From positions 42,507,023 to 42,571,022 of the forward strand of contig NC_054878.1 of the NCBI RefSeq assembly GCF_018320785.1: a DNA stretch of 64,000 nt. The letters run 5' to 3'. A program made the position numbers and the translations under genes. The notes below the pieces were generated by a model. That model was given only the letters and a program-made list of their open reading frames with translations. It was not told the origin of the DNA and ran no database searches. The stretch comes from Cheilinus undulatus. Taxonomy: Eukaryota; Chordata; Actinopteri; Labriformes; Labridae. Positions 400 to 63,954 of the stretch are shown in pieces. The stretch's first letter is position 1. Each line of letters starts with the position of its first letter.

Positions 400-3300
400 T
401 CAGTCCTCTGCAGGAGATCTGATGTTTTCATAGCTCACTGTGTCATCTTCATCGCCGTCCTCCACCTGTGGAAATCAACAACACAAACAAATGACTGATT
501 AGAGAAGCAAATGAATGAATGTTTTGTTTGGATTCAGAGTTAAAAACTAATGATATTTGAATAGAAAATTTAAACATAGAAAAAGTTGCATTAAAATTCA
601 TGGTTGTAGCCTCTATACCCTGTCAAGATGTGAATGAACAGGCCTTTTCCCTCTCTGTCCTCCAGTTATTTTAAATTCTGAATAGAAAATTAAACATTTC
701 AAGCTGCTGTTCATCTGTTTTCAACCACACAAAATAAATCTTGTATTTCAACACAAATGTCAAACAGGTGGTAGTCTCACAGCCTGATATTCAATGATCA
801 AAAGCTTTCAGGCTTCATTAATAAACACTTTTAATCAAAAACATTACTGACAAAATAAGTCTGATGGAGATTTTTCTACATTTTTCATAATTTCTTTTAA
901 TCAATGCCATTCTAAAGGCCTATATAGACCATATTTTGATGGTCTTTCTCACATTTGCCCAGATTTCTTTTAGCCAGTCCTCCTCTTTTGTCTAAAACCC
1001 TTCAACACATGAATTCAGACTTCTTTTCTCTCTGTGTTCATACTTTTGTGATTCAATAACTCTAAATCTCACAAACTCTGGTTATGAAAACTCACCACGC
1101 TTTCCCTCCTCTGAGTTTGTTTCCCTAAAAGAAGAGAGAAAAAGTTGACTTTTGTCTTCTTAGAGAATATGCACGTTTATTAAATCTTCTTACATGGAAG
1201 TCTGATGTGTGAATGCTCTCACCTTTAGCTCTTGTCCATATGCTTCCTGCCACAGCAGTTAGAATGAGAACTGATAAAGCTGGAGCGACTACAACATACC
1301 TCCCCCAGGCTGCAAAGACATAAAAAAGTCAAATGTTTATGTTCCTTAACCCCTGGGCATCCCTCTAAATGACTACACACGTGTCCCTATGGGACATTTT
1401 CTGCGCCTACTTTAACTGCTAATATTTATCATTTCTATACATATTTTTTAAATGTTTCGTTTTGTTTTTGTTATCACTTCCAGCTCTGATCATGACATAG
1501 TAAATTTTTGGCCTTTTTTTTTGAATTTATGTGTTTTTAACCCTTTAAATGCCAGTTTATTTAATTTTCAATTCAGCAGAATGAGATATTTTCATATAAA
1601 AAAATGCTAGATTTTTTTTTTAAATTATGATCAAAAATAGTCACAAGTCATCCATTACCACCAACATCAAGTTTTATGCATATTTACTTTATGTGCAGTG
1701 TCCAGAAATTGGTGGAAATTATGCAAAAGATGGACCACTAGGAAACATTTTGACCCCATCTTTATATGGTTATATTCGTAATTCGTTTTTGTTTTTTTAA
1801 TTAATTGTTTTATTTTCTTTTTTGTAATCACCTCCACCATTTTCAGTATTTTGATAAATAATCAATAATTTAATAAATTTTCTGATCAACAGGTATTTAT
1901 GTGCTGAATACACTGAACATAGACCTGCAGAGTATCCCCAACAAAACGCATTGAAGTGGTGCTTCAGAGATGCAATTTCTCAAATCTAACATGCAAAACC
2001 CAAGTTTATATTCCTATCAACACCCACAGACTTTTTATTTCATTTCTTTATGCCTTTATTTCACAGAGCTATAGAAAATCCCATTGTAAGTGTGTCTTTT
2101 AAGTGCCCTACGGATACACGATGGCCCAAAAAGAGTAATGGCGCTGTTGAGTGGTTAGTTGTAAAAATTGCAAGGTCACCCTTCAAAATTGCATCACACA
2201 TCATGGGGGTAACAGTGGTACATGGTATTGCAAATTTTCAATCAAAATAATCAATTATAATGGGTTTAAATAGGCGAGTTTTGTCCCCAAGGGACACCAA
2301 CGTGAGTATTTTTTCTTCACACCATACCAAACAGGTCAGTGTAATGATTTGGCTTAAAAAAACAATTAAATGAGCAAAAATACACATCTTTGTGCAATTT
2401 CATGTCAATTGCATCAACAGAGCACAAATTAGGTCAAGAACTCCAAAACAAATTGCCAAGCATGTGCCTATGTATACCTAAGGGTTAAAGAAAAGGAGAA
2501 AGTGTTTTTCATGTAACATAGAAATATTAAACCATGCATTGCTTTATTTCATTTCAAGATACATTTGAGTGGGAAGGCTTTGTTGAGTTATTAAGATACA
2601 GATATCCGTACAACGGAGGCTACTAATGGGCAAAATTAGGTACAGCCAAAGCAGTTCAGGGCTGTTGACAATGTACAGATTTTTTATTTATTTATTTAAT
2701 TTTTTTGCAACGCCCAGGACGTCAGTTAGTCAGCCTTTCTCATAGTGTTTGAAACTTGGCTGTTAAATTCACTGTTTAACATCGTAATACATTGAGAAAT
2801 ACGCAGCAGTGTAGGTACAAAATGACACACTGATATCCAATGATCCAGTGATTAACTTGCAGAACTTCAGCTTCTCTTTGTGGAAGAGTCTTTTTTATTT
2901 TTAAAGGGCAATGTTAAGGGAGTTCCTCTTTTTTTTTTACAACCTCTAAAATAGTTTGATGGACAAGGCCAACAACAAAAATGATTGTAGTGATTAGAGA
3001 GTGGAGTGACGCAGTGAAGGATTAGACCCTCATTACCTGATGCTGTGTTTGTCTCAGCTGCTGTCCTTGATTCAGTCAGTCCTCTTGTTGTTTTTGTTGT
3101 CCATTCTGTTGTTGTTGCTGTTGTTTTTGTTGTTGTTGTTGTGTCTTCTTCTGAAACAAAAAAATTAAAACTTTACAAACAGTTAAGCTCAGAATTTAAG
3201 TTGAAATCTGTCAGTGAAACTCAAAACCTGTTCTCTGGTTTTCTTGGTATTAACAAATAAAAAATACAACTTCAGGTGTAATACAAAATAAAGCTATATG

Positions 3301-6300
3301 GTGTTTCTAGGCATTTATTCCTTCTCTGGCTGATGTGGGTTGAAATTCAAATTCATTAAAGTGGGGATGTTACATGGTACAACATCATTTCATTCATATG
3401 TCAAACAATAACGTTGATAAGAATGTTTTTCTGTGGTGTCAAGAGTCAAACTCTCCATGGGCTGCAGGGCTTCAGGCTCTTTCTACTGAAGCCAAATCTA
3501 CATGTTTACAGACAAAGTTTACCATGCAGAACTGGAGCGCATGTACAAAATGACTCACTGATGTCCAGTCATCCCTGGTTAATGTGACAGCATTTACACT
3601 TTTTAGAAATTTACATTTAGATATTCTTTCTCTGTAAGTTAACCAGGTACAGACTTTGAGAGGCAAAAACACGTGTTTTTGCCTGCTAACCGTGCCTAGT
3701 TACAGCAGCAAGAGTCCTTGACATTTGGTTAGTTACCTGGCTACACGTAATGCTAGAGCTAAATGTGCTATTGACTAGACTCAGCCTGACCTGTGTGTCA
3801 CAACTCACTCTCTCCAACACCCACCTCTACGTTGCACCATTTTTTTTTAACCAGCTCTGCCTGCTCTGTGGTCTCTGTGCTTGAAGCCATTGTCACACTG
3901 AGGCAGATACAATGACGTCATCAACAAGTGTTATCGCGATTGGTCGGTAGAGTCCAAATTTCTACCGTAGGCCAAATTTATATCATTTATACCGTCTACC
4001 TCATATACCGCGCACCCCTAGTATGAATCATGCTTGTTACCCACGGCAATGAAATCAGGAGGGGGTTATGTAAAGGGTTCTGTATCTTTCTATCTTTCTT
4101 TCTTTCTTTGTTCGTTTGTTAGTATGTGTACAAGATAACTACAGAACAGAAAGTTGGATCTTCACCAAACTTTCAGGGAATGTTGGGATAGTGACAGGGA
4201 AGAATCGATTAGATTTTGGTGATGATCTGCGCACCCGTTTGGTTTTTCTCTGACTTCGAAATTTTGAACACCATAGTAATCAATGGGAGCGTGAGTTCCT
4301 CGGTGGCGCTGCTTAGGCGTGGGTCTGCCGCCTCAGACAGCCATTCTAGTTTTTAATGCAGTAACACCCGAAGGCCCGAAGATCACCAGCAAACCAATAC
4401 TGACCCTCAGCCTTGTCCTTTGCTCACAGACATTTTTCCAGATTCTCTGAATCTTTAGGTTATATCATGGACTGTAGATGGTGGCATATTCAAAGTCTAT
4501 TTTACATAAATAGCTATTTTCTTGAAATTGTTACACAACTTTAAAACAGATTTTTTTCAGAGATTGAACCTCTGCCCATCTTTACTTTTGAGAGACTCTA
4601 CTGCTCTAAAATGCTCCTTTTATACCGATTTATGTTACTGACCTGTTGCTTATTAAGCTAATACTTCCACTTTACTTTTCCAGCCTTTTGTTGCCCTGTC
4701 CCTACTTTTTTGAGATGCGTTGCTGCCATTGAATTCAACATGAGCTAATATTTTCATGAAACATCCGTTGTTTATGTTCTAATATGAATAAAATATGGGT
4801 TTATGAGATTCACATTGCATTATGATTGTTTTATGCAGCACCGCAACTTTTTTTTAGAATAGGCGTTGTAAGAAGACACACTTTAACTTTTCTTACCTGA
4901 GGGTTGCAGTCTGAAGGGAAACAGGTGTCCTCCATCAGTGTCAGTCACTTCACAGCTCACTGAGTCAGTTATTGATCTAACTACGTTTGGAAAGGTGACG
5001 GCAGCGTTGCACAAAAGCTTGGATGACGTCGCAGGTAGGACACGTTCGTCCTTATTTTCACCCTTAAATAGCAGCCTCACGTTGTATCTGCATTCTTCAG
5101 GTGTCGACACAGAGCAGTTAAAAGTCACGGAGTTACCGTTCCAACGTTGGGTCACTAAATATGGAGATATCGAGAAAGAGAAGCTCCAACATTTCAGTCA
5201 CAGATCCTCTTTTAGTGTGAGTTTCTATGGTCTGAAATCACGACATTAATACTCACTGCTAAGAACCGTCAGATAATTATGAGCATAAGGACCGTGTCTT
5301 TCTCCTGATATGTACTGCTCACAGTAGTACCGCCCAGCGTCCTCCTCAGTGACCTTCTCTATCACCAGAGAGCAGTCTTCTCCAAGGCTCAGTCTGTCTG
5401 ATGCTGCTGATGTTTTTATCCGGCCCAGTGAAACCAGCTCCACCGTTGTGTGCTTCGACCTGCTGTAGGCCCATGTGGTTCCGTCACAGTTACACTGATT
5501 TTCCGTCACATTTTGACAAGACAGTATGACTGTAGCTCCAGCTTTGACAGTGTCGTGGATGGTAAGCTGTCCTAACGCTGTTGCTGCAAACATACCAGAG
5601 AAAAAAACAAAGGTAGACAAAATTAGGACTGTTAGTGTTAACATGTAAGTCAGAAGTCATCTGCTCCTTACATCAAACTCAAGTCAAACATCTCTGAGTG
5701 TTAATTCAAGGCATTCTGCTGCAGCTAACCAGATGGTGGGCAGCATCGCCAAAACTGGCAGAACACTAGTTTTTTTTTAAACTTGTGGATAAAACCTGAG
5801 GAAAAACCTGCTGAGCCAAATATCTGGGGTTTTGTCCAACCTCAGGAGGGTCCAGGGGAGCGCTTTCTCAGGATTTTGTTGCAGATCAGGCAGTTGTGTG
5901 CTCACTACTTTCAAGCAATTTCATACCATCATTTAAATGTGAAATATTAACAAATCTATTCATCATTCTGACAAAAATGATACAGTGGACGATCAGTAAT
6001 TTCAAGTTAACTTTTCTTTGTCAGTGGCCCCGTAGTGGCTCTGTGATCAACCAGTGGACTGGCCCATTTTAATGCAAGGGCTTATGGGGCCTGAACCCCG
6101 GGATCCATCCATGGGAAGGGGCCCCATAAGGCCATGAGAATAACTAAAATCATGCCTGTTGGTTCGACTGCATGTCCATGTGTGTCAGTTATTGTAATGT
6201 GCCCTGAGGGGGTCAGGGAGAAATGGATAACTTAAATAAACAAAAGTCATTGTGACTGGTTAATAGGAAGTAGGCCTACCTATTGTCTAAGTGTTTTTGC

Positions 6301-9146
6301 CTCAACACTTTTCCCACTTTTTCCACATTATCTCCATTTTTGCCAGTCTTTTACCACTTTTAACCCCTTCTGTTTGTGGGCCTTCTATGCCACTTCTTTT
6401 TCACTTTTAACTAATTTTTGCCACTTGCCACTTTTGCCCTTTGATGCCATTGTTTACAACTTTAAACCACTTTCTGCTGTTTTTTTTTTGCCCAAAATAT
6501 TTAGTCACTGCCCATTTTTGCCACCTTTATATCAAATTTGCCACATTTTGGCACTTTGAACCCATTTGCCTTTCCCCCATCTCTGCCTTCTTTTAACCCA
6601 TTTTTGTCACCTCTTTTAGGCACTTCTATCCTACTTTTGCCACTTTCAACTATTTTGCTGCCTTTCTCCGATTTTTGCCTTCTTTTAAATCATTTTTGCT
6701 GCTTTTTAATCCAGTCATGCAAATGGTTTGCCACTGTTTTATAACTTGAAACCCATCTTTGTTATTTTGCTCCCCTTTTCACCCATTTTTGCTACTTCTT
6801 TTGGACACCTTTATCCTATTTTTGCCACTTTTAACCAACTTTTGTTGCTTTTCCCTCATTTCTGCCCTCTTTTAAACATTTTTTGCTGCATTTTCATCCT
6901 TTTGTGCAACTTTTTTAACACTTTAAAGACATTTTTGCTGTTTTATGCCCCTTTTCACCCTTTTAGCCACATCTTTTGGACACTTCTATGCTACTTTTGC
7001 CACTTTCAGCCCATTTCTGCCATCTTTAAACCTTTTTTTTGCCTTTAAATCCTTTCTTGACTTTGTTTTGCCATGTATAACCATTTCGTGCTGTTTGTGG
7101 CCTTTCTTTGCAACCATTTTTCCCCTTTTTTTAATTTGGATGAAACACAAGATACTTTTGTCCTATAAAGAGGATCAGCGCTCAGTGAAGAAATCCCTAA
7201 TCATTACTATCTGCCTCCACAAGTCAACCATGCAGACCCATGGGTAGTAAGAAACCCACACCTCACAGGGGTTTTCAAGTGGGAACCCTCCTTCATCAGT
7301 GTCTCATCCAGTTAGTCCCAAGACACCTCCAGAGGGCTGAATGGTGATCTCCAGCATCCAGAGCCACCCCCCTCCATGTCGGCTCCCACCACCCACCATG
7401 CCAACTCGCAGACATCCTCTTACCTATCTTACCACATGGCCCACACAGCCTCAACAGCACACCACCTTCAACAGACCCAGGCTCCGCAAATGCAAGCTCC
7501 AGGTAGTGACGATACTGGTACTACCTTCCTTAACACCTCTCATGATTACAGTGCCACTTTACGCCCATTTATGCCACAATTTTGCCACGTTTTCATCACT
7601 TGAAACCTATTTTTGCTCATTTTTTTGCCACTTTAACCCATTTTTGTGACTTTTCCATGTCCACCATCTTTAAATGATTTGCCACTTTCAGCCCATTTCT
7701 GCCATCTTTAAACCTGTTTTTTTGCCTTTTCATCCATGCTTGTCTTTGTTATGGTAGGTATAACCCCTTTGTGCTGTTTGTGGCACTTCTTTGTAACTTC
7801 TTTGCCATTTTAAGTTAATTTGTACCACTTTATGCCCATTTATGCCACAATTTTGCCACATTTTTATCACTTGAAACCTATTTTTGCTCATTTTTTTGCC
7901 ACTTTTAACCCATTTTTTTGGCTTGTCCACAAGTTTGCCTTCTTTAAAATGATTTTTGCTGCTTTTTCATACTTTTTTGCTGCTTTTTTAACACCTTGAA
8001 CCAATTTTTACCACTTGTTTTGGACACTTTATGCTATTTTTGCTACTTTCAGCCCATTTCTGCCCTCTTTTAAACCTTTTTTTTGCCTATTCATCCATTC
8101 TTGTCTTTGTTTTGCTAGATATAACCCCTTTGTGCTGTTTGTTGCCCTTTTTTGCAACTTCTTTGCCATTTTAAGTTGATTTATGCCACAATTTTGCAAC
8201 TTTTTTAACACTTCAAACCTCTTTTTGCTGTTTTTTGCCATTTTTAACTTTTAGATATTTGCTGCTATTACCTTATGTCTGCCCTCTTTAAACCATTTTT
8301 GCTGTGTTTTTATCCATCTTTGCCACTGTTTGTCCATGTTTGCTCCTTATTTAGGCCACTTCTAACCCCATTTTTCCACCTTTCATAAATATGTAATTAT
8401 TTTCCTTTAAAGTTGTCTCAGTTTCTTTTACTTTGTTTTTGGCGATCCTGACATTCGTGGACATTATGGCCAAGCTCTGAATTTTGGCATTACTCTCCCA
8501 GTGGTTTATTTCAGTGTGATCTACATTGTTAACATCACCAATAAAAGGTAATTGTGTTTTAAGAAAAGGGTTAACATTTATAGCTATTTTCCTGTATAAT
8601 TTGTTTCTGTATAATTTTTTCTGTAATTTTTTTCTGCACAGTTTTTTTTTCCTGTATTAATTTTTTCTGTATAATTTTTTTTCTGCAGAATTTTTTTCCT
8701 GTATAGTTTTTCTGTAATTTCTTTTCCATATAGCTTTTTTCTGTATAATTTTTTTCTGTATCATTTTTTTTGTACATTTTTTTCTGTATAGTTTTTCTGA
8801 ACATTTTTTTCTGTTTTATATTTTCTATATAAAATTTTCTTCTGTATATTTTTTTCTGTACATTTTTCCTGTATAGATTTTTAATCTCTAAAAACTGCTG
8901 AGATGCTTCCAAAAATCACATATTTCTGACTTTCAAAATCCTTGTAAGTGACGACGTGCTCTTTTGTTGAAATAATTAATAAACGGTGTACAGTTATGGT
9001 TCATCATTTTGTCAAAAAGATGCCTTAAAATCAGGACAAACCCATAGATCTTCATATATGTTATTGGTATATTTTATATAGACATATTAATATTCATCCT
9101 TACCTTCAAACTGAAGCAGCAGCATGAGAAACAGAAACATTTTCAT
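400..9146 (-). CDS. Ig-superfamily single-pass receptor, 7 exons (V-like + C-like, ITIM-like tail)
   Basis: Exons on the minus strand: 9146-9104 (signal peptide starting MKMFLFLMLLLQF), 5583-5257 (V-like domain), 5154-4897 (second Ig-like domain), 3150-3037 (Thr-rich stalk), 1309-1223 (membrane helix ending IWTRAK), 1124-1096, and 465-400 (tail and stop). Every junction is GT-AG and all phases agree, giving 307 residues. The V-like domain has the canonical Cys pair (LSCQN and RYYCEQY) plus an extra pair (NCDGTTW and GEDCSLVI). The second domain has four Cys, including FNCSV and SCEVTD. The tail contains VSYENI, which fits the ITIM pattern (V-x-Y-x-x-I) and a Y-x-N Grb2-type site. The likely role is an inhibitory or signalling receptor on leukocytes. 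The Cys pattern and layout recall teleost DICP receptors, but that is inference and no name is given. The gene is intact. No AATAAA was seen between the stop and the window edge. Confidence 0.82.
1350..2484. mobile_element. piggyBac-like non-autonomous element
   Basis: The 1135-bp segment is flanked on both sides by TTAA (1346-1349 and 2485-2488), the piggyBac target site. It starts CCCCTGGGCATCC and ends GTATACCTAAGGG, imperfect inverted ends. A second inverted pair lies inside (GTGTCCCTATGGGACA near 1381 and GTCCCCAAGGGACAC near 2283). There is no transposase frame. It sits in an intron of the minus-strand Ig receptor, between the stalk and membrane exons. Confidence 0.6.
2489..3036. other. 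Intron sequence without recognised features
   Basis: AT-rich intron of the minus-strand Ig receptor, between the piggyBac-like element and the stalk exon. It has short T runs and no repeat family or reading frame that could be identified. Confidence 0.4.
3850..4130. repeat. hAT-like terminal remnant and TTTC microsatellite
   Basis: The stretch up to about 4020 ends in CCGCGCACCCCTA, which read backwards resembles the TAGGGGTGCGCGG start of fish hAT-like elements. Just after it, at about 4088-4110, is a short TTTC tract. Both lie in the intron between the second Ig domain and the stalk exon of the minus-strand receptor. The other end of the element was not found, so only a remnant is claimed. 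Confidence 0.3.
4640..4860. mobile_element. Tc1/mariner-like 3' terminal fragment (copy 1)
   Basis: The segment contains CCTGTCCCTACTTTTTTGAG and a GAATAAAATATGGG stretch ending in a GCAACTTTTTTT terminus. It aligns by eye with the better preserved copy at 10310-10665, whose outer end is intact. The left part of the element is missing. It lies just outside the second Ig-domain exon (4897-5154) of the minus-strand receptor. Confidence 0.5.
6296..8375 (+). repeat. Degenerate GCCACTTTTAACCCATTTTT minisatellite (two blocks)
   Basis: Two blocks (6296-7135 and 7550-8375) are built from many diverged copies of a roughly 20-30 base unit close to TTTTGCCACTTTTAACCCAT. They are separated by about 400 bases of unrelated sequence. 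Long open frames here (Phe/Leu-rich) come from the repeat and are not genes. The same unit occurs at 13880-13985, 45886-46355 and 49405-50275. The blocks fill much of the leader-to-V intron of the minus-strand receptor. Confidence 0.75.
7145..7295. repeat. Dispersed repeat shared with 31319-31475
   Basis: This stretch splits the minisatellite. It reads ACACAAGATACTTTTG, then an AAGAAATCCCTAA stretch, CTGCCTCC and AAGTCAACC, and later TTCAAGTGG and CCTTCATCAG. The same blocks recur in the same order at 31319-31475. No coding capacity is evident and the family was not recognised. Confidence 0.45.
8585..8890 (+). repeat. T-rich CTGTATAATTTTTT tandem repeat
   Basis: About twenty degenerate copies of a 12-16 base unit close to CTGTATAATTTTTT. 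The Lys-rich frame on the opposite strand is a by-product. It lies within the leader intron of the minus-strand Ig receptor. Confidence 0.7.
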
Positions 9147-39300: not shown

Positions 39301-39389
39301 GAGAAAACGAGCCTCAACAGAGCAACCAAAGCAGGGAGCAAATGACCGTTCACTTAAAGTCGCTGCTGAAGGTTCAGGATCAATCATGA
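33359..39389 (+). CDS. pnrc1: Proline-rich nuclear receptor coactivator 1, 2 exons
   Basis: Exon 1 is 33359-33694 (112 codons, phase 0, donor GTAAAA) and exon 2 is 38913-39389, giving 270 residues. The diagnostic block is YAGPKFSEPPSPS and VLPKPPSHW (residues 219-240), the SH3-binding, decapping-complex-binding proline motif of PNRC proteins. It is followed by the NR box LKSLL (260-264) near the C-terminus. The two-exon layout with the KKE/LLKSK junction and the SNQSREQMTVHLKSLL ending fit PNRC1, not the single-coding-exon PNRC2. PNRC1 binds nuclear receptors through the LxxLL-like box and links to the decapping factors DCP1A/DCP2. The N-terminal region is short and divergent compared with the mammalian protein of about 327 residues. 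The 5.2-kb intron carries repeats. Confidence 0.93.
34490..34915. repeat. ATATCG/CGATAT-rich interspersed element
   Basis: The left part has GCAATATATCGTGATAC and CAATATCGATAC; the right part has CTATCGCAATATATCACA and GATATATTGTGATACTG, largely inverse to the left. It ends near ACTCACCCCTAAC. This is the pattern of a common fish non-autonomous element. Precise borders are not certain. It lies in the pnrc1 intron. Confidence 0.45.
35028..35876. mobile_element. hAT-like element with internal AT minisatellite
   Basis: The left end has GGTGTCAAACTCAAGGCCC and the right end has GAGTTTGACACCCC, inverse to each other; GGCCC and GGCCC-type blocks lie just inside both. Between 35280 and 35730 it carries a degenerate TTTTGACTTTTTATCTCATA repeat, the reverse complement of the array at 16490-18250. 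No transposase frame and no clear target duplication were found. It lies in the pnrc1 intron. Confidence 0.55.
35877..38912. other. Remainder of pnrc1 intron
   Basis: AT-rich intron sequence. Frames such as 37274-37519 show no recognisable motif. No RNA gene, repeat family or enhancer-type motif cluster could be supported. Confidence 0.35.
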
Positions 39390-42068: not shown

Positions 42069-42105
<37 letters not shown>

Positions 42106-45537: not shown

Positions 45538-45545
45538 ATTTAGAT

Positions 45546-46460: not shown

Positions 46461-46468
46461 ATTTAGAT

Positions 46469-50700: not shown

Positions 50701-53700
50701 TTAAGGCAGAGTACCTAAAATATACGTTGTTTATGTAGTTTTTTTTTTGTTTTGTTTTTTTGTTTTTTTGTTTTTTTTTTTGGGGGGGGGGGGGGTTTGT
50801 TATTAGACAGCAACAATGAATCAAGGAAAATGTGGGATCACTAATCGCCATTCATTAGACTTCACAACAACTATTTACCAAGTACCAAGTGCTGGATCAT
50901 TCCCAAAGAGCTGGGCAAAGAAATCCCAGAAGTGGAGCAGGACAGTGCAAGCTAACTATAGTTGGGAAACTCATTCAACCACTGGGGGCAGCAGTGGAGA
51001 ATAGTCTGGCTGAGACTCAATCTACTACTGGGGACAACAGTAGAGAATTGCCTAGCTAAGTGCAAAGTGTTCTCTGAAGAGCTGGGTCTTTAGCCTTCTC
51101 TTGAAAGTAGACAGGGAGTCTGTAGATCGAATGGAGTTGGGTAATTCATTCCACCATTTAGGGACAACAGAGGAGAAGAGTTAGTGACTTAGGAGCATGA
51201 TGTGCTGGAAGTACCAGGCGCCTTTCGCTGGCTGAGCGTAGTGGGCGAGAAGGGGTGTAGACCTGGATGAGGGACTCCAGGTAAACAGGAGCAGTTTTAG
51301 TTACTGCTTTGTAAGCAATGATTAGAGTTTTGAATTTAATGCGAGCTGCAACTGGAAGCCAGTGTAGAGAGATTAAAAGAGGCGTGACATGAGCTCTCTT
51401 GGGTTGATTGAAGACCAGACGTGCTGCAGGGTTCTGGATCAACTGCAGAGGTATAACTGTGCATGCAGGTAGGCCTGCCAGTAATGAGTTACAATAGTCA
51501 ATACGTGATATTATAAGAGCCTGTACCAGGAGTGGTGTAGCATGGTCTGTCAAGTAGGGTCTGATCCTCTTGATGTTGTAGAGGGCAAATAAGCAGGACC
51601 GAGCAACCGAGGCCACATGGACCTTGAAGGTTAGCTGGTCATCAATCATGACACCCAGATTCCGGGCTGACTTAGTGGGCAAGAGATTATTTGATCCAAG
51701 CTGGATACTGATCTGTGTTTCCACAGTGGGACTGGCTGGGATGATAATGAGCTCAGTTTTGGGCAGGTTGAGCTGAAGGTGACGTTCCCTCATCCATTTA
51801 GAAATATCAGCAAGGCAGGATGAGATCCGAGCTGAGACAGTTGTGTCATCTGGTGGAAAGGACAGGAATAGCTGTGTGTCGTCTGCATAGCAGTGATAAG
51901 AAAAGCCATGGGAGCGGATGATTGCACCAAGTGAGGTGGTGTATATTGAGAAAAGTAGGGGACCAAGCACAGACCCTTGAGGCACCCCTGTTGATAAGCC
52001 ATGCAGTTTAGACACTCCTCCCTTCCATGATACTCTAAAAGATCTCCCTGTGAGGTAGGACTTAAACCACTGTAGGGCAGATCCTGAGATACCAAGTGAA
52101 GAGAGTGTGGAGAGGAGGATTTGGTGGTTTACTGTGTCAAAGGCAGCAGACAGATCCAGCAGTAAGAGAACTGAGGACTGACCAGCTGCTCTGGCCAAGC
52201 GAAGTGATTCCGTTACCGACAAAGTGCAGTTTCAGTAGAGTGGCCCGTCTAAAGCCAGACTGATTCTGATCAAGTAGATCATTGTTCTGCAAGTGTTCTG
52301 AGAGCTGGTTGAAGACTGTGCGCTCCAGTATTTTTGATAGGAATGGGAGAAGTGAGACCGGCCTGTAATTTTCAACCAGGGCTGGGTTGAGAGTGGGTTT
52401 TTTGAGCAGTGGTGTAACCCGCGCTTGCTTGAAAGCAGCTGGGAAAACACCTGTGGACAGAGAGGAGTTAATGATACAACTCACAGCAGGGCTGATTGTG
52501 GGCTCAATCGCCTGCAAGAGATGTGATGGTATCGGATCGAGCGGACAGGTTGTGGGCTTAGAGTCAAGCAGAAGCCTGGTGACCTCGCTCTCACTTAGTG
52601 GAGAGAATGAGCTAAGTGATGCATCACTAGCTGGTGGCAGAAAACTGAGTTGGACAGGCTCAGAGAATTGGTTGCTGATGGTAGAAACCTTGTCAGTGAA
52701 GTAGGAGGCGAACATGTCTGGAGTCAACATACTGGAGGGTTGTGGGTTTGAAGGAGAGAGGAGCGAGTTAAAAGCAGAGAAGAGTTTGCGTGCATCAGTG
52801 GCAGCACAGATCTTTGATTGATAGAACGCCTTCTTAGCAGATTTTAGAGCAGAGGTAAAACAGGACAGTTTTTGCTGATAGGCACTCAAGTCAGTGGTTT
52901 GTTTGGATTTACGCCATTTTCTCTCTGCCGCCCTGAGCCCTGCCCTTTGGGTTCTGATGACCTCAGTGAGCCAGGGACAAGGTGGAGTATTTCGAATAGG
53001 CTTAGACACCAGAGGGCAGAGTTTGTCCAGAGAGGAGGTCAGTGAGGAGCAGAATGTGTCTGTGGCCTCGTTAACAGTGGTACAGTGGGGAACTTGAGGT
53101 ACAGTGGGGGTCCCCAGTCTCTGGCAGCTTTATTTTGGGGTCGCGGGCTGAAAAGTTTGACAACCCCTGCTCTACAGTGTCCAGCAACACGAATGGAAAA
53201 GGATGCTTATCCTGTTATCCTGCTGTTAGGCTGTTTTTTGGATGTTTTGCTAAAGGGAAATGTGGAAAAAATAAATGGTACAACCACTGCACCACTTAGT
53301 GTTAACCTCTGACTATCTTTAAACACAACAGTTTCTGATTTGAGTTTCTCATTTTGTTACAGCGCGTATGAATCAACCACACTGCTCACTATAAAACAAG
53401 GAGAAGATGTGACTTTGCCTTGTGAGAATGTGGTCAGCAGTCAGCGGGGATGTGGTGGTACTACATGGTTCTTTACTGCTTTAACTCACGCAGGATCAGT
53501 TGTGCTGATTGAATGTGGGCGGGTTGGTGGAAATGCTGGAGTTAAATCAGACAGACTGAGTGTTAGAGAGGATTGTTCTCTGGTGATGAAGAAGGTCACA
53601 CAAGAGGATGCTGGGCGTTATGACTGTGGACAGTACAAATCAGGAGAACTAAGAGGTCCTCACACTCATCTGTCTGTCGTTAGCAGTAAGTATTTATACT

Positions 53701-56327
53701 GTGATTTCAGCTTCAGCTAACATTTTCCAAATAGTCTTCTTCAACAAAAGTGATGAAGCCAGGTTATCTCTTCTCTCTTTATCTCTACATCCTCATCTTC
53801 ACAGTTACTGAACACATGAACGACAGTTATCTGTCAGTCACCTGTGATGTGAGGACACCTGGAGGTTGTAGACACACAGTGAAGTGGCTGAATGAGAGAC
53901 CAGACCAACATGTGCCAACATCACCATCGGACTCTGGATGCTGGACCACCGCCCTAATCCAAAAAGCTCATGCATCCAGAGATGTCTTATTGAAGTGTGA
54001 AGTCACAGATCAAACTGGAAGAGTTCAACATTTCCCCTTCAGTTGTCAGACAACAGGTAAGTGTTTGATGATCTGCAAATCTAGATTAAAAAAAAAAACA
54101 AATATAGAAAAGAAAACCTCCTCACCCTCTTTCAAATGATTAATGTTTGCTATTTTAATTTACATTTGTTGTCCCCTGTGAAAACCTAAAATTCCACAAA
54201 TTTCTTCACAGTACAATGATCACACTTACGTTTACCTGAAATATCTAATGTTTTTATTCCTTGTCCAAGGCATTACACTATTGGAGGCTTTTCAGCTGCA
54301 GAGAGATCCTTTTTCTTTCCTATATTGCTGAAACCTGTGGCCTGCTTGATAATGTGGAACGTCCTTCTTAAGTAGTTTTCCTTTAATTGGGCTCACCTGG
54401 GATACTAATCATCACAGGTGTCTGAGACTGATTTCAGTGACCCAAAGAGCCCTGAGACACAACACCATCCATGAGTTTAACTGAAAAACAAGAAGTTGAA
54501 TGTTTATGACACTAAAATACAATATGCATACTAATTTGGAACACGGTGTAACCAGTCCCCTCCTCCACCCTCAGGAGTGCTGCAGCCCACAGGTAGAGAG
54601 AGGAGGGAGACCAGAAAGCCAAGGAGAGAGAGGGCATGCAGCACTTGAGGCTGCACGTAACAATTATATATACTTCATAATAAATAAGTCAAAACTTGCA
54701 TGTCAAATATTTCAATTTGCAAATATTGAAAATAAATATTGTTTAAAATGTTTCCTTTTCAACCCAAAATATCTCGCTCCATGACCTCCACTTTAAACAG
54801 AGCAAGCTTTATACCCTAACTGAGATAAACTCTTTCATTCTAACATGAAGTCATACCTCTGTTTCTCTTAATATTTCAAAATTCTCTCTTATCCCAGCAG
54901 TAACCACACCACCTACCCTCTACTACAATGTCAGAGATGGAGATGACGTCTCATTGTCTTGTCTACACGTGATAAAAGATCAACAGAACTGTGACAGTAA
55001 TATATGGACATTCAATAGACACAGATCAAGAATAGCAGAAGAGCTGATCTTCTTTGGACATATACTTAGAAACTCTGGAGACAGACTGAGTGTCAGAGAG
55101 GACTGTTCTCTGGTTATAAAGACAGTCAGAGTGGAGGATGTTGGTCTTTATGTCTGTCGACAATTCAAATCAGACAGACATAAAGATGCTCCTGTTCATC
55201 TGTCTGTTATTTCCAGTGAGTATTTACATTCGCATGTTTAAACTGTCTTTAAAACAATCAGCTAAATATCTGATCAATTTAATTTTTGCAGTGTTGAAGT
55301 TTGGTTTAAATCTTTTTCCTCTCACTAATCTCCATCTTCACCAGTGACTGAGAATGTGTACAGGAATGAGGCGACAGTAACCTGCTCTGTGTCATCATAT
55401 GAACCATGTAAACACTCGGTGAGGTGGCTGTATGAGGGTAAAGATGTGAGAGAACATTATCAAGGTGGGGAGACACAGTTTCCCTGCTTCACCATGGTGA
55501 CTTTCAAGACTTCTGAACCAAAACCAAACTCTCTGGATTGTGAAGTTACTGCTGATAACAAAGTGGAGCTCTTTACCCTCAGACTTCAGCCCTCAGCTGA
55601 GAAACCAGGTCAGAATATCTTAAAGTAAACCTTTTAGTATTTAATCAAAACAGATGGTTTTAAATTATGTTTGTGGACTGAACAGTTTGATAAGTTGGGC
55701 TCATTTGTTCAGGTGAGGACACAAAAGAAACAACAGCAGGACCACCTGAAAAGACCACAACATCAGGAACCAAAACATCTGGAATCAATGACTCTTCAAC
55801 TCTAGACAGTATAGTGATGCACATTTTTCTAGTATTCTTTTGTTTTTGTGAACAAAAAATGTTTTATTATTTTAATTAACAACAAAGATTTGATTTGCTC
55901 TCATTCTCTCTGCAGCCAGGTTCATCGTTGTCTCTGCGGGTTTATCAGCTCTCATCATAACTGTTGTGACCGTCAACATATGGACAAGAACTAAAGGTGA
56001 GAACGTTCACAGATTCAATTTACACTCAAGAAGATTATATAAACATGTATTTTCTCTGTGGAAGCAAATATTAACTTTCTCTAATCTTATTTTAGGGAAA
56101 CAAAGACAGAGGGATGATAATGTGGTGAGTTTTTACAACCAGTGAAAGTGGAGTTTAGGTACTGCTCAGCTGATTTTAGACAGTCTAGTCTCTATTAGAA
56201 TATGGACTGGAATCAGTCTGAGTGTTTCAGAGTGTTGGTTTGATTGTGTTGATTTTCACAGGTGGATGAAGATGATGAAGATGAGACAGTGAACTATGAC
56301 AACATCAGATCTTTTGCAGAGGATTGA
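47780..56327 (+). CDS. Ig-superfamily single-pass receptor with two V+C exon pairs
   Basis: Leader exon 47780-47840 ([20 protein letters not shown]). Best in-frame exon set: 54901-55215 (V2), 55345-55608 (C2), 55713-55808 (Thr-rich stalk), 55916-55996 (membrane helix, [16 protein letters not shown]), 56096-56124, 56262-56327 (tail, stop). Joined to the leader it gives 303 residues, close to the minus-strand paralogue (307). The V2 domain keeps the extra Cys pair (NCDSNIW and REDCSLVI). The tail is VNYDNI, an ITIM-type and Y-x-N motif, preceded by an acidic run. An extra upstream pair (V1+C1, 53363-54056) does not fit the leader's frame and is listed separately. Intron 1 is filled by a hAT-like element and a LINE. 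An AATAAA at 56442-56447 follows the stop. Likely a leukocyte surface receptor; ligand unknown. Confidence 0.78.
49405..50275 (+). repeat. GCCACTTTTAACCCATTTTT minisatellite, third large array
   Basis: About 870 bases of diverged units close to TTTTGCCACTTTTAACCCAT, the same unit and orientation as 6296-8375. It is contained in the hAT-like copy at 48535-53169. The small Phe-rich frames are by-products. Confidence 0.75.
50540..53090 (-). mobile_element. L2-like LINE, 5'-truncated, with target duplication
   Basis: The minus strand encodes a reverse transcriptase. 53009-52137 carries the fingers region ([28 protein letters not shown]) and 52222-51158 carries [26 protein letters not shown] and the catalytic YADD. 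One frameshift near 52200 separates the two. The endonuclease is missing, so the copy is truncated near 53090. The 3' tail has CAATGTCATTTAGCAGACGC and CAAAGCGACGTACA, a signature of fish L2-type tails, then TTACAATG repeats at the end. A 6-base duplication AACTTG flanks it (50534-50539 and 53091-53096). It cannot move by itself. The clade call comes from the tail and protein pattern. Confidence 0.8.
53363..54056 (+). CDS. Extra V1+C1 exon pair, out of frame with the leader
   Basis: V1 exon 53363-53685 ([34 protein letters not shown]) and C1 exon 53805-54056 ([21 protein letters not shown]) are open throughout and have proper donors (GTAAG after each). V1 is 323 nt, while V2 and V3 are 315 and the minus-strand V is 327, so V1 is not a multiple of three. 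The leader ends in phase 1 but V1 needs phase 2 at its only good acceptor (TTGTTACAG). A one-base loss near the acceptor, a different leader exon, or exon skipping would each explain this. Skipping both exons restores a full receptor. Whether the pair is used is unknown. Confidence 0.6.
54057..54900. other. Intron between C1 and V2 with a possible transposon fragment
   Basis: Between about 54280 and 54500 the sequence (TAATTGGGCTCACCTGG, ATCATCACAGGTGTCTGAG, CATCCATGAGTTTAACTG) resembles the 5' region of a fish DNA transposon, but no ends were found. The rest is unrecognised. Confidence 0.3.
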
Positions 56328-56778: not shown

Positions 56779-56781
56779 ATA

Positions 56782-58029
56782 CACTTTATTGCCAGAAGTA
56801 ATCACTCACCTGCCCTGACTCTCATATGAACTTAAGTGACAACCCATTCTTAATCCATAGGGTTTAATATGATGGCGGTCCACCCTTTGCAGCTATAACA
56901 GCTTCAACTCTTCTGGGAAGGCTCTCCACAAGGTTTAGGAGTATGTTTATGGGAATTTTTGACCATTCTTCTAGAAGCGTATTTGTGAGGTCACACACTG
57001 ATGTTGGACGAGAAGGCCTGGCTCTCAGTCTCTGCTCTAATTCATCCCAAAGGTGTTCTATCAGGTTGAGGTCAGGACTCTGTGCAGGTCAGTCAAGTTC
57101 ATTCACACCAAACTCTCTCATCCATGCCTTTATGGCCCTTGCTTTGTGCACTGGTGCACAGTCATGTTGGAACAGGAAGGGGCCATCACCAAACTGTTCC
57201 CACAAAGTTGAGAGCATGGAATTGTCCAAAGTCTCTTGGTATGCTGAAGCATTCAGAGTTCCTTTCACTGGAACTAAGGGGCCAAGCCCAGCTCCTGAAA
57301 AACAAGCCCACACCATAAACCCCTCTCCAGCAAACTTTACACTTGGCACAATGTAGTCAGACAAGTACCATTCTCCTGGCAACCACCAAACCCAGACTCG
57401 TCCATCAGATTGCCAGATGGAGAAGCGCGATTTGTCACTCCAGAGAACGCGTCTCCACTGCTCTAGAGTCCAGTGGTGGCGTGCTTTACACCACTGCATC
57501 CGACGCTTTGCATTGCACTTGGTGATGTACAGCTTGGATGCAGCTGCTCGGCCATGGAAACCCATTCCATGAAGTCCTCTATGCACTGTTCTTGAGCTAA
57601 TCTGAAGGCCACAAGTAGTTTGGAGGTCTCTAGCAATTTACTCTGCAGAAAGTTGGCGACCTCTGCACACTATGCGTCTCAGCATCTGCTGAACCTGCTC
57701 CGTCATTTTACGTGGCCTACCACTTCATGGCTGAGTTGCTGTCGTTCCCAATCGCTTCCACTTTGTTATAATACCACTGACAGTTGACTGTGGAATATTT
57801 AGGAGCGAGGAAATTTCACCACTGGACTTGTTGCACAGCTGGCATCCTATCACAGTACCACGCTGGAATTCACTGAGCTCCTGAGAGTGATCCATTCTTT
57901 CACAAATGTTTGCAGAAACAGTCTGCATGCCTAGGTGCTTGATTTTATACACCTGTGGCCATGGAGGTGATTGGAACACCTGATTTCAATTATTTGGATG
58001 GGTGAGTGAATACTTTTGGCAATATAGTG
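56782..58029 (-). mobile_element. Complete-length Tc1-like element
   Basis: A 1248-bp element flanked by TA on both sides (56780-56781 and 58030-58031). The inverted ends are CACTTTATTGCCAGAAGTAA (left) and CACTATATTGCCAAAAGTAT (right, opposite strand). It carries a full-length but interrupted transposase on the minus strand (separate entry). It lies between the second and third Ig receptors. A degraded relative is at 59750-60012. Confidence 0.85.
56864..57895 (-). pseudogene. Tc1 transposase with three nonsense codons
   Basis: From MDHSQELSEFQRG (ATG at 57895) to the TAA at 56864-56866 there is one continuous frame of 343 codons, interrupted only by stops at 57727-57725, 57640-57638 and 57091-57089. 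No frameshift is needed. Helix-turn-helix sequence (SGEISSLLNIPQSTVSGIITKW) lies near the start. The catalytic triad is visible: Asp in WSDKSRF, Asp in FQHDCAP, Glu in LNLIEHLW, with 34 residues between the last two (DD34E). Two of the stops (TGA at 57727-57725 and 57091-57089) can be single transitions from CGA and TGG. It is inactive as it stands. Confidence 0.85.
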
Positions 58030-58826: not shown

Positions 58827-61800
58827 ATGGATGAGCTCAGATGGATTCACATTTCTGTCATTCTGACAGCGCTGCTTCAGTTTACAGGTGAGAAAACTTT
58901 CACAGAGAAATTAATATAGATATCTAAAACAATATAATTAAAGAAACTTCACATTTTATATTTTCAGCTAAAACAGTCAGTGTGTTGTTCTCTGAGTAAA
59001 GTTATTTTGTTTATTCTAATGGTCAAAAGGGGCTACATACCGTATAAAAGTGGCTTTAGCACTAAAAAGAGGTAGGAGAGGGGCTTGTGCACCAAGTTGC
59101 CTCTAAAATCACTTTCATTGATTTAGAATCTGCTATTTAAATGTGAGTATGGGAAAATAGGAACATTTTGGCTGTCTAAAACAGTTCCTGTAGAAGACCC
59201 TGGCCCCAACAGTGAGGTTTAAGCCGCTCAGCAAACAGCCCAGGCTGACCAAACACGATGACTTCTGTTTTACTGTCCAGATTTAAAAAGTTTAAGGGAA
59301 TCCATGTTTTAACATATGCAAGAAAATCAAATAGAGGCAGCAGGGTAACCCTGTTTTCAAATTTCAGGGGCATATAACAGGCTTGAAGTTGCCCATCGCA
59401 CGGGCCCTATCCAGATCAGTCAAACGTGGCATGCAGATTCTTGGAGCAGACTACTGACCACTGTAGCAGGGCCCATGCCCACAGGTGCTGCCAGTCAGGT
59501 CATGTGACCAAAATATCAAACATGCCAGAAATCTTTCCGACCAGTTGGGAGCAGGTCGTTAGTTGGGCCGTGGTCAGCTGTCGTACGCCCTGTACACTGC
59601 ACGACAAACAATGCCAGATCAGACTGAAAGTCGGCCCGACTTCAGAGTGAGTTGTGCGACTCTGTATTTGTGGCCCAATCGGAGGAAAATCGCACAGTGT
59701 ACACCCGCTTTATCAGTCATTGACCCCGCTCTGTGGTTTGATGTGGTCGTCCGCTTCATGGCTGAGTTGCTGTTGTTCCTAAACACTCCCACTTTGACAA
59801 TAGAATATCCAGCAAGGATGAAATTTAACAAACCCTCTTATTGCAAAGGTGGCATCTATCACAGTACCAAGCTTGAAGTCACTGAGCTCCTCAGAACGAC
59901 CCATTTAGTATCACCAGTGTTTGCAGATGAAGACTGCATGGCTAGATGATTGATTGACAGGTCTCATTGAAACACCTGAATTCAATAATTAAAAGATGTG
60001 GCTAAATACTTTTTCATCATCCAGCAAAGAATCAACCGCTTGACTCCCAGTAAGAAGGATTATTTGTCATATTTGCATTTCTCTAAATGTGTTAAACTTC
60101 TCTCTTATCCCTGCAGCAGCAGCCATACCGTCTACCCTTCATGTCAAAAATGAAGATGTCTTACTGACTTGCCAAAATGTGATAAAAGGTCAACAGAACT
60201 GTGACAGCACGACATGGACATTCACTAGACCCAGATCAACAACAACAGTAGAGCTGGTCAGACTTGGACAGATCATTGAGAACTCTGGAGTCAGCCTGAG
60301 TGTTAGAGAGGACTGTTCTCTGGTTATAAAGAAGGTCAGAGAGGGGGATGCTGGTCGTTATGACTGTCTGCAGTACAAATATGGCATAAAACTAGCTCCA
60401 GATGCTCCTGTTTATCTGTCTGTTGTTGCCAGTGAGTATTTAACATTCACATGTTTATACTGTCTTTTAAACAATCAGCTAAACATCTGATCAGATTTAT
60501 CATTAATGTGTCGAAGTTTAGTTTAAATCTTGTTTCCTCTCTCTAATCTCCTTTTTTCCTAGTGGCTGAGCTTGTGAAAAATGATGTGGTGTTTGTTACC
60601 TGCTCTGTGTCCCCATATGATCGGTGTAAACACATCGTGACGTGGCTGTATGAGGGTAAAGATATGAGACAACATAATCAAGGGGTGAGGTCAAAGATCC
60701 CCTGCTCCTCCAGTGTGTTCTTTACAGCTTCTGATTTCATCTACAAATCAAAACCAAACTCTCTGGATTGTGAAGTTACTTCTGATAACAAAGTGGAGCT
60801 CTTTACCCTCAGACTTCAGCCCTCAGCTGAGAAACCAGGTCAGAATTATGATTATTATGCCTTTATAAAGACTATAAACACTGAGCAGTGAAAGTCACAC
60901 TTGTTGAGTTCATTTGTTCAGGCGAGGACACAAAAACAGACCCAAAAGAAACCATGATGAGACCAGCTGACGAGAGAGCAGCAGGAACTGGCACAACGTC
61001 TGCCGTCAGTGACTATCCAGAGCTCAAAGGTAGAGACAAAACTTTTTTTGGTCATTTTTACTTTAAAGCTCAAAGTTTGCTAAAGACATGCAACTGTTCC
61101 ATTCCCTGTAGTTTAAAGGCTGCTGTAGACAGTAGTAGTTAAGTCCCAGTATAATTCACGACAGCAGGAAGCAAACATGGAAAATCAATGACTCTTCAAC
61201 AATCAGTACAAGTGATGAACATTGTTCTGATTTTGTGTATAATAATGCATTATTATTAGGGCTATGATTGATTAAGAGTGTGATTAGCACACTATTTCTT
61301 TTTTTATATGATTAATCTCATGCTTTACACGCTCCATATACGTCTTCTGGGTGGCCTCTTTAGTATGGCTGGACAGTTAATTGCAAATTAGATTAAATCG
61401 CAATATAGCATGCTGCAATTTTCAAATCACGGACAGTACAATATTTTTTTATCCTGAAAAGTGTAAAAAAATACCAGTTTGATACAATCTTTTTTCTTTT
61501 TTAAGAACTTTAGAACTTTCAAGTGTCTTTCTTCTTTTTTTTCTACAAAAATCCTTCTTTTCTTTTTCATGTATTTATTTTTCTTTATCAAAATGAGAAC
61601 AATATGAGAATTGATCATCCCCTTTAATATAGCAATTGACATCAAATTGGCTATACGAGCCAAAGTCACACTAATATACATTACTGTGCAGAAATTTTTG
61701 GCACGTTTGGGCAGAAATTTGAGGCTGAAGTAAGGCGTGTAATGGCGAGTACGCCCACCTGAGGGCGGGAAGGAGGATTGACATAACCCAGGTCATGCTC

Positions 61801-63954
61801 TGGATGTCTTTGTACATTACCAACGGCATGGGAAAATAATCTGATGAAAACAAAACAAAAACCACAGCTTTAGGGCAGAGTTATGGGTAGATGTGGAGCT
61901 TAAACATAGCCTAGGGTACTGTTAGGGCCGGTAGGAGGGTTGTCGTGTGTGTGTGTTCTAAGCACCTGAAAACTGTTGGTGGTTGCTGGGCGTATTACCA
62001 GGGGTGCAAAAGCCCGGACAAAAGAAATGCTGTTAAGCTTGACCTTGACTGCTGAGCGACATGCGTACAAATGTGTCGACACTGACTCTGGCCGCCCTCC
62101 CTCCTCTCTCCAGCCTGGGGTTGTGGAACCTGGACCTGTGAAGAACTGTTCGCGCTCTACATGCCTAAAACTACAGCACAGGACTGTATATATATTTCAA
62201 ATTGTTTATCTCTAGTTTAACTTATCTTATTTTGTGCTTGTTATAATAAAGAATGACTCCTTGCTTTTGTTTGTTGAACAACACATTAAAAGAGGAACCT
62301 TAATAATCGCATATTAAATCGCAATACTGTGGAAAAAAATTTCAATCAGATTATTTTCGTAAATCGTTCAGCCCGACTATTTACAATGAGGGTTTTTATG
62401 ATTTATTGAGTGATTTTATTTGCATTTCACTTGATTTTGTGAATTAAACTGATCGATTGATTGTGATTTAAAATGAGTCCACTGCTCCTTAATGTCTCAT
62501 TATACTTTAAAAAATTCACAGACAGCTCAGTGGACAAGCCAGAAGTCACCTGAGCTTCATGTTATCAAACATTTTCCTTTCACTGTCTCTTTATTTCCTT
62601 TTCAATCCATAACAAGTTCCTTTTTACATTGTTAAACTCATTATTTAATCTCCGTGTTAATTAGAAAAGCAGATCTGTATCTTGAGCTTTCACATAAACC
62701 AAATATGTTTTAAAAATGGTCTAGTTAAAATATTTTTATCCAAATATTTTAATTTCATTTCAAATGCATTTCATTGTTGGGCTCTAACATTGAGATCAGT
62801 CTGTATATCACAGCCAGCCACAAGGGGGCGATTGAGATATTTACGTAGAATATTTCTGTGACTGTCATGTTGTCTGTCACTGGGTTTGATGCTAAAATAC
62901 GATGTAGTGGTAAGTGAAAAAAACAAGCTGGAAAATTGCATCCCCAAAACACCTGTTTCCACAGACAACTGCAGTTTTTATCAATAAAGAATGGACTGAT
63001 AAATACGTGTTTAATATTTGCTAATAATAGCTGACAAGTGGATTTCTGAAAAAGTTGATAAACAAAAACATTCCTGATAAAATAGTTTGGATCTCATTTG
63101 TTTGGGAGTTGTTTTAATAGCTGTAGGGAATATTTTAAAAAATCCACTGCATGTTTTGAATTTGATAATTTTCTGGGGGCTGGATGGGAAGATGTGAGGC
63201 GCCTGATGTGGCCCCAGTCCCAGGCCGCCAGTCGATTATCCCTCCAGTAGAACAATCCAAAATGAAACAAAAACAGTTCGGATAGTAAATGAATTGTGAT
63301 AAAAAGAAAGATTAATCAGATTAAGACTCTCTACTGATGTCTGTGTGGTTTTAAATTATTTAGTCAAAATATGCCCATCAGATATGTATGAACTGAAACA
63401 AACAGCTGCTTAAGCACTCAGCTGGAAGTCACAAGTTTGCACAGTCACTGATTGACCTGAAACACCACTCTTATTTTAATCATGTTAAACTGACTTTAAG
63501 GACAGACTTTGTGTGTCATTAGCTGGTTTGATAGACATGTTTGTCTGTGTGCAGCGAAGAAAACATAAAGATGTGGAGAACTGGATATCAGTTTGTGTGT
63601 AAAACTCTCATCTATCATTGTCTCCTCTTCCTCTTCCAACAAATGTAGAAATTGAATCTCACGTTTGCAGCACGTTAATTTTTGAGGACTTGAAGAGAGC
63701 TAAAGGCAACCATAATGTAAAACATCAACGTACATGTAGGTAACAGCAGGTTTATTTCCAGCTGGTGGATTTATTTTACATCACTGTGGCTTAATGGCGT
63801 CGTCATGGAAACGTTAATGCTGACAGCCTTGTAGTATAGTATAATAGTTGATTTGCTCTCATTCTCTCTGCAGCCAGGTTCATCGTTGTCTCTGCGGGTT
63901 TATCAGCTCTCATCATAACTGTTGTGACCGTCAACATATGGACAAGAACTAAAG
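58827..63954 (+). CDS. Ig-superfamily single-pass receptor, cut by the window edge
   Basis: Exons: 58827-58887 (leader, [20 protein letters not shown]), 60117-60431 (V-like), 60563-60838 (second Ig-like domain), 60922-61029 (stalk), 63874-63954 (membrane helix). All junctions are GT-AG and in phase. The two cytoplasmic exons found in the sister genes should lie past the right edge. The V domain shows [24 protein letters not shown] and RYDCLQY; the second domain shows VTCSV, RCKHIVTWLYEG and LDCEVT. The leader and promoter are nearly identical to the second receptor, and the membrane exon is identical to it over 81 bases. The V and C exons are clearly more diverged. Likely a working leukocyte receptor gene; the tail motif is not visible here. 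Confidence 0.8.
59179..59370 (-). pseudogene. LINE reverse transcriptase fragment
   Basis: The minus strand encodes a short piece with LLPLFDFLAYVKTWIPLNFL followed by NLDSKTEVIVFG. The WM..NFL.LN.SKTE pattern is the thumb-side block of fish non-LTR reverse transcriptases. Only about 65 codons remain. It lies in intron 1 of the third receptor. Confidence 0.55.
59585..59710. repeat. Possible short inverted-repeat element
   Basis: CGCCCTGTACACTGCACGA near the left and AATCGCACAGTGTACACCCG near the right are inverse to each other around 100 bases of non-coding sequence. No target duplication was found. Confidence 0.35.
59750..60012 (-). mobile_element. Degraded Tc1 fragment related to 56782-58029
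   Basis: Matches 57722-58020 block by block: CGCTTCATGGCTGAGTTGCT, ATCACAGTACCA, TCACTGAGCTCCT, GTTTGCAGA, ACTGCATG, AACACCTGA and the terminus AATACTTTTT. Deletions have removed the rest. It lies in intron 1 of the third receptor. Confidence 0.6.
61365..62378. mobile_element. Element with TATGGCTGGACAGTTAAT and AAATCGTTCAGCCCGAC ends
   Basis: Both ends carry a GGCTG(G/A)ACNNTT-type terminus followed inwards by AAATCGCAATA or ATTTAATCGCAATAC blocks that are inverse to each other. The interior is non-coding and ends with AATAAAG at about 62248. An older terminus of the same sort (AGGGCTATGATTGATTAA) starts near 61258, so the region may be nested. It is in the stalk-to-membrane intron of the third receptor. 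Confidence 0.45.
62379..63873. other. Stalk-to-membrane intron of the third receptor, remainder
   Basis: AT-rich intron sequence with no recognised gene, RNA or repeat family. The 25 bases just before the membrane exon (TGATTTGCTCTCATTCTCTC and the acceptor) are identical to those before 55916. Confidence 0.35.

Follow-up and report, generated by a model that had tools for sequence, protein, structure and literature searches.

Among the described fish receptors closest to the genes studied here, nearly all medaka NITRs carry a J or J-like motif, FGXGTXLXV, and their I domain has six conserved cysteines, according to the accessible part of the report (PMC2442602). The NILT receptors, as far as the available text of PMC3022915 describes them, have immunoglobulin (Ig) domains of the V type with extra cysteines spaced as CX3C, CX6C or CX7C; in the inhibitory receptors, introns 1–4 are in phase 1, while intron 5 and the exon bearing the immunoreceptor tyrosine-based inhibitory motif (ITIM) are in phase 0. 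The DICPs appear in the available excerpts of PMC7867084 and PMC5340972 as a separate fish receptor family and as a marker of natural killer (NK)-like cells. The subject of the present work is a 64-kb stretch of the Cheilinus undulatus genome (contig 14, positions 42507023–42571022; hereafter the window), in which three Ig receptor genes lie on either side of crip2 and pnrc1; the genome searched comprised 1.17 Gb in 46 contigs. The zebrafish DICPs were reportedly described by Haire et al. in 2012 as a clustered multigene family with a V-type D1 domain, an Ig-like D2 domain and variable domain, transmembrane and signalling types. Recombinant DICP Ig domains are reported to bind lipid.

Our best reading is that the window belongs to a set of germline-diversified, mostly inhibitory Ig receptors that would resemble paired receptors. 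The three genes probably belong to a large, clustered family of immune receptors of the paired type, which are type I membrane proteins with Ig domains. The complex of which the window shows a mostly intact-looking part is a large one, worth annotating but of a kind already known. In each receptor unit, a V domain precedes a C-like one and each of the two carries an extra pair of cysteines; a gene has one or two such units. The sequence-only reading of the window had placed the three genes at 400–9146 (minus strand), 47780–56327 (plus) and 58827–63954 (plus), and our outer coordinates agree with it to the base. All three assembled models (genes 1, 2 and 3) have an open frame with AG/GT at every internal junction. 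Their V and C exons are homologous (tblastn E values down to 4e-34), with identities to the first alignment row of 41–53% for the window V exons and 29–65% for the C exons, and genes 1 and 2 score above the Pfam cut-off for the V-set domain; a search of four exons against NCBIfam returned nothing useful. The exon phases are shared, just as had been claimed, phase 1 being kept until the first tail exon and phase 0 preceding the last exon in genes 1 and 2, the two genes whose tail exons lie inside the window. The supposed common exon order is seen in genes 1 and 3 (V-C), whereas gene 2 departs from it with an additional V-C unit (V-C-V-C). The extra V-domain cysteine pair is present in all four window V exons, and the shared short tail was found as well, with the ITIM-like sequences VSYENI, VNYDNI and VNYENI in genes 1, 2 and 3, respectively, that of gene 3 lying past the window end.

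To determine the extent of the complex, the V exons of genes 3 and 1 (V4 and V1) were used as queries against the genome. V4 gave at least 68 matches at E <= 0.001, 66 of them on contig 14, and V1 gave at least 92, of which 89 were on this contig. When merged, they define at least 89 V exons on contig 14 between 42.397 and 43.886 Mb (1.5 Mb), four of which are in the window; 62 of them lie past 43.2 Mb, and the weaker matches there (mostly 36–50% identity) may belong to related families. The 89 V exons fall into seven strand-uniform runs of 10 (minus), 17 (plus), 10 (minus), 2 (plus), 23 (minus), 23 (plus) and 4 (minus). Strand shuffling gave a mean of 45 runs, and none of 100000 shuffles had seven or fewer, a comparison to be read with the non-independence of the exons, as one gene can yield two V exons on the same strand and tandem duplication alone makes runs. 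The first and second runs are separated by a 48-kb gap occupied by crip2 and pnrc1. The earlier picture of receptors wrapped around these two genes is therefore apt for the two left-most runs, but five further runs lie 0.5 Mb away.

A stretch of 260 kb, made up of the window and 196 kb of its surroundings, was read in detail, with exon matches listed at E < 1e-3 for V and C exons and E < 0.5 for the short ones. In the V tree, built from 27 of the 28 V exons (the truncated exon at 42488529 was omitted), the seven V exons of the left block form one clade (support 100/99), the nine first V exons of the right block another (97/95), and five right-block second V exons join the gene 3 V exon in a third (97/87). 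The separate left and right clades indicate that each side expanded locally. The C tree recovers a left group (100/99) and a right first-C group (100/100); it is otherwise weak, with three of 24 inner branches well supported and a warning of long-branch joining. Right of pnrc1 there are six signal exons, four of which encode identical peptides and two a peptide with one residue changed, and the DNA identity of the aligned unit stretches of the right block is mostly 75–96%, down to 67%, with cross-domain matches included. Losses are also visible. No second V exon was found in two right-hand copies within the 260 kb, another right-hand copy has a stop in its second V exon and a shortened C exon, and no first V-C unit was found for gene 3. 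Taken together, the number of V exons, the separate clades, the identity among units and the exon losses agree with the earlier suggestion of a growing cluster, and an immune-type Ig receptor cluster growing on either side of crip2 and pnrc1 is well supported.

In the V tree, the V exons of gene 1 and of its left neighbour each stand alone on a long branch, and both V1 and the C exon of gene 1 (C1) lie outside the left and right clades of their trees. Because both exons are on such lone long branches, gene 1 seems to represent a lineage of its own that has diverged, and not a close sister or mirror copy of genes 2 and 3. A simple inverted duplication of one gene across crip2 and pnrc1 was also considered; with V1 and C1 on lone branches outside both clades, it is unsupported.

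Both domains of the receptor unit are marked by additional cysteines. Over the 260 kb and six outlying loci, the extra pair occurs in 27 of 28 V exons, the exception being the truncated one, and in 26 of 27 C exons, the exception having lost one of its four cysteines. This extends the sequence-only reading, which had noted the pair in V domains alone. In the V domain the two residues occupy alignment positions C27 and C65, about 37 residues apart. An AlphaFold model of the C domain reached a predicted local distance difference test (pLDDT) score of 75.8, and a structure search with it returned only antibody chains among the 50 matches listed, none at E <= 0.001. Since the C model has no significant structural match and the V model is unusable, the partner of each extra cysteine is proposed from the cysteine pattern. 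A search of bacterial and archaeal genomes with the V profile brought up no relative; in viral contigs the profile matched two stretches of 11 residues, judged to be chance.

Three types of transmembrane and tail ends were distinguished in the 260 kb, type A in six genes, B in five and C in three; these counts leave aside a match at 42370504, which was not taken for a receptor, and come from a scan that lists alternative exon starts and can miss exons. Type A, which includes the three window genes, combines an uncharged membrane segment with a short acidic tail, and the ITIM-like motif VxY[ED]NI is kept in five of the six. ITIM receptors follow the pattern [S/I/V/L]xYxx[I/V/L] in the cytoplasmic tail, with no charge in the membrane, and genes 1–3 show both features. 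In type B, four genes have tails with several tyrosine motifs, e.g., ITYASI and VTYATV, and the fifth is at the border of the 260 kb. Type C has an arginine and a glutamate within the hydrophobic segment; charged membrane segments often occur in activating receptors that borrow an adaptor. Five consecutive ends in the left block are of types B and C in alternation. Two of the three type C genes have stop codons in their V exons and no C exon was found for the third in the 260 kb, while all three left type B genes have an open V exon; the activating-like arm may be decaying at contig 14, 42.403–42.488 Mb. As judged from the encoded ends, the three-type layout is that of paired inhibitory and putative activating receptors.

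On this basis, a mode of action can be proposed. The V loops would bind variable ligands, whereupon the single tail tyrosine of the window genes (in VxY[E/D]NI) would be phosphorylated; the tail could then damp the cell by recruiting an SH2 phosphatase or else, given its YxN core, an adaptor (Grb2, for instance). The long-tailed relatives in the cluster presumably act likewise through more tyrosines. Those with charged membrane segments would have an activating adaptor as their partner, but in two of the three found the V exon is broken.

The pattern of substitution in the V exons bears on the supposed ligand binding. For the nine first V exons of the right block, i.e., those of the type found first in gene 2 (V2), the pooled ratio of nonsynonymous to synonymous substitution rates (dN/dS) was 1.35, with an interval of 0.94–2.15. 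In the loops, which would make up the binding face, dN/dS was 1.84 vs. 0.92 elsewhere, and when the loop mask was shifted circularly over 108 positions, the true one included, only the true one reached the observed dN difference. Without gene 2 the values were 1.69 vs. 1.03, and again only the true one of 103 positions reached the difference.

Several observations weigh against a family of diversifying inhibitory receptors. The loop excess is indistinct both in the group of right second V exons and the gene 3 V exon (1.38 vs. 0.82, attained at 21 of 111 mask positions, the true one counted) and in the left-block V exons (0.65 vs. 0.71, 15 of 103 positions), for which the whole-exon dN/dS is 0.69. 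The whole-exon intervals include 1 in all six groups, the pairwise counts are non-independent, and the nine V2 rows include one truncated at a locus edge. Because the other two V groups show no distinct excess, the apparent loop diversification is limited to one domain class, the right-block first V exons, for which it is supported. As to the domains and ends, the V-set match of gene 3 scores 22.0 bits, below the Pfam cut-off of 26, the AlphaFold model of the V domain has a pLDDT of 46.5, too poor for use, and V2 requires an unusual acceptor. The gene to the left of gene 1 (42.490–42.496 Mb) has a type A membrane exon followed by a tail exon with no tyrosine motif, and a short tail with one tyrosine can easily fit the ITIM pattern.

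When compared to the described families, the window genes share with the NITRs the clustering, the V and second Ig domains, the inhibitory and activating forms and the leader, Ig, transmembrane and two cytoplasmic exons, as given in the accessible part of PMC2442602. The combination of V domain, transmembrane segment and ITIM tail is present, too (with the gene 3 V-set match under the cut-off). Unlike the NITRs, the window family has neither the J-like motif nor the six-cysteine second domain. By eye, the full FGXGTXLXV was seen in none of 28 V exons, which end in sequences such as LSVVSS (two of the exons are incomplete at this end). The C exons show four cysteines in 26 of 27 cases, with one exon lacking one of these. 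With the NILTs, to the extent that PMC3022915 could be consulted, they share the intron phases, the connecting-peptide exon and a tandem cluster with pseudogenes; the phases, this exon and the phase-0 ITIM exon were found in genes 1 and 2. However, CX3C, CX6C and CX7C spacings are absent, as the window cysteines are widely spaced, and the second domain is C-like. An origin as Ig or T-cell receptor (TCR) V segments was rejected. None of the 150 V-set matches scored in the genome, out of 1326 candidates, is on contig 14; of seven such loci, the three read in the right frame resemble TCR or light-chain V by eye and lack the extra pair, and the window exons belong to membrane-receptor gene models. 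CD300/pIgR-like and KIR-type receptors likewise form clusters of inhibitory and activating Ig receptors, but the extra disulfide of CD300/pIgR is local, around the C strand, unlike the wide pair of the window family; solved pIgR chains match the V profile only over a short stretch, positions ~67–92.

That the window family is simply DICP, its genes being genuine homologues of those in zebrafish, is a realistic possibility, though short of our favoured one. The general features of DICP fit throughout, with a V-type first and Ig-like second domain, a variable number of Ig domains, varied transmembrane and signalling ends and a clustered multigene arrangement; the comparison is of descriptions, not of sequence, and the acid-sphingomyelinase-domain, fatty-acid-binding-protein-like, crip2 and pnrc1 neighbours are not known to lie beside zebrafish DICP. 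The genes could instead, somewhat more tentatively, make up a separate, unnamed teleost family that resembles DICP in layout only, in keeping with the distinct cysteine pair in both domains, the large cluster of its own and the absence of NITR and NILT hallmarks; against this, the resemblance to DICP, compared by description only, may be plain homology. A fuller version seems doubtful, namely, that of an undescribed paired-receptor family of teleosts, distinct from DICP, NITR and NILT and marked by the extra pair in V and C domains, which would have grown outward from crip2 and pnrc1 into a 1.5-Mb complex by gaining and losing V-C units, with three end types and loop selection on the outermost V. 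Similar unnamed predicted proteins presumably exist in other percomorph fishes. In the open-access literature, no title about fish receptors was among the matches listed for crip2 together with pnrc1, and none describing such a cluster among those listed for receptor families. Cell-adhesion Ig proteins of the JAM or CEACAM kind, in place of immune receptors, are very improbable. Solved structures matched by the V profile do include Roundabout, JAM-like and CEACAM chains, but most of the top matches rest on a generic E-F strand stretch (the JAM-like match is the exception), and paired receptors better account for the large size of the cluster and its tyrosine-motif and charged-membrane types.

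Four features of the probable paired-receptor family are uncommon: the extent of its complex, the strand-uniform blocks around crip2 and pnrc1, the cysteine pair in both domains and the mixture of three ends. A large germline-encoded complex of immune-type receptors is mapped in one assembly, with an exon grammar for its annotation. Automatic gene models are likely to be wrong at the distinction between four-Ig and two-Ig genes, at missing V exons and at the frame-shifted first V exon. If the ligands were major histocompatibility complex (MHC) molecules, lipids or pathogen proteins, the complex would be another independent fish counterpart of the KIR-type variable clusters.

Gene 1 (9146–400, minus strand) encodes 307 residues comprising the signal peptide, a V and a C-like domain, a Thr-rich stalk, a transmembrane segment and two tail exons. 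The signal-peptide exon (MKMFLFLMLLLQFE, 9104–9146) has an ATG and a GT donor in phase 1. It is followed by V1 (5257–5583; Pfam V-set 36.9 bits vs. the cut-off of 26), C1 (4897–5154), which is homologous to the C exons of genes 2 and 3 (C2–C4), and the stalk exon (3037–3150), all three with AG/GT borders and phase 1-1. The type A transmembrane exon (1223–1309), whose hydrophobic segment is uncharged, precedes cytoplasmic exon 1 (1096–1124, phase 1-0) and cytoplasmic exon 2 (400–465), which reads VEDGDEDDTVSYENIRSPAED and then a stop and contains VSYENI.

Gene 2 (plus strand) has nine exons, four of them Ig exons. The signal-peptide exon is at 47780–47840, its peptide recurring unchanged in three other right-block genes and with one residue changed in two. 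V2 (53332–53685), open only from an upstream acceptor, is followed by C2 (53805–54056), the third Ig exon V3 (54898–55215) and the fourth, C3 (55345–55608), the last three with a relation found by tblastn and junctions taken from the model. Then come the stalk exon (55713–55808), the type A transmembrane exon (55916–55996), cytoplasmic exon 1 (56096–56124) and cytoplasmic exon 2 (56262–56327), which encodes 21 residues with VNYDNI before the stop. Intron 1 contains a long interspersed nuclear element (LINE), recognised by reverse-transcriptase frames and a UnaL2 3′ element at window positions 51158–53129 and 50550–50603, both on the minus strand.

The start of V2 differs by a net 2 nucleotides from four neighbouring paralogues, just inside their inferred acceptor, and when read from that acceptor (start 53363) V2 is out of frame and runs into stops. 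Gene 2 may on this account be a decaying copy, in which the frame-shifted V2 leaves an exon-skipping product, if any, or a pseudogene; the long branch of V2 within its clade (0.63) and the LINE in intron 1 would agree. We consider such decay unlikely: an in-phase AG at 53330–53331 just upstream gives gene 2 an open frame of 506 residues, and even without the first V and C exons a frame of 304 residues is left, the remaining exons being open.

Gene 3 starts at 58827 on the plus strand and runs out of the window, which holds its signal, V, C, stalk and transmembrane exons in a partial frame of 280 residues. The signal-peptide exon (58827–58887) is followed by V4 (60117–60431), the gene's sub-threshold V-set match, C4 (60563–60838; tblastn relation, model junctions), the stalk exon (60922–61029) and the transmembrane exon (63874–63954), whose peptide is identical to that of gene 2. 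The last tail exon, VETVNYENIRASAED..., which carries VNYENI, lies directly beyond the window end.

The two genes that the sequence-only reading had named between the receptors are supported. crip2 (18699–25195, plus) has a LIM exon (PF00412) within 18699–19052, the best solved match of which is cysteine-rich protein 2 (E 4e-17), and a C-terminal exon within 24830–25195, recognised by reading with no Pfam match. pnrc1 (33281–39389, plus) has the PNRC motif PF15365 within 38913–39389, and its exon at 33281 was likewise recognised by reading, with no Pfam match. Two further genes lie to the left of the first strand run; one has an acid-sphingomyelinase C-terminal domain, and the other resembles brain-type fatty-acid-binding proteins. 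Transposase remnants lie between crip2 and pnrc1 on the minus strand, at 29274–29876 (HTH_Tnp_Tc3_2) and 27436–28518 (by reading only), and a further HTH_Tnp_Tc3_2 remnant was found by Pfam between genes 2 and 3 (57089–57637, minus).

A degenerate 20-base minisatellite (about CCATTTTTGCCACTTTTAA, with up to 4 mismatches) recurs within window positions 6000–8900 (plus), 45000–46999 (minus) and 49000–50999 (plus), in the first introns of genes 1 and 2 and in the region upstream of gene 2, as well as at many places in the left block. There are 43 near-matches in the window vs. 0–1 in five mononucleotide shuffles, and the repeat might favour unequal exchange.

Outside contig 14, a weak V match is present on contig 2, and single outlying V-C units were found on contigs 5 and 12, the C part of the latter by reading only. 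The frame of the contig 5 V exon (716–1399 of its locus, minus) extends upstream into VAASQ[QH]HPP-like repeat units, a stretch that may be an intron. Another large V-set cluster, with many open frames of ~200–280 residues, is located on contig 22 at 3.60–4.09 Mb; it could be NITR-like, with the V and the second domain in one exon.

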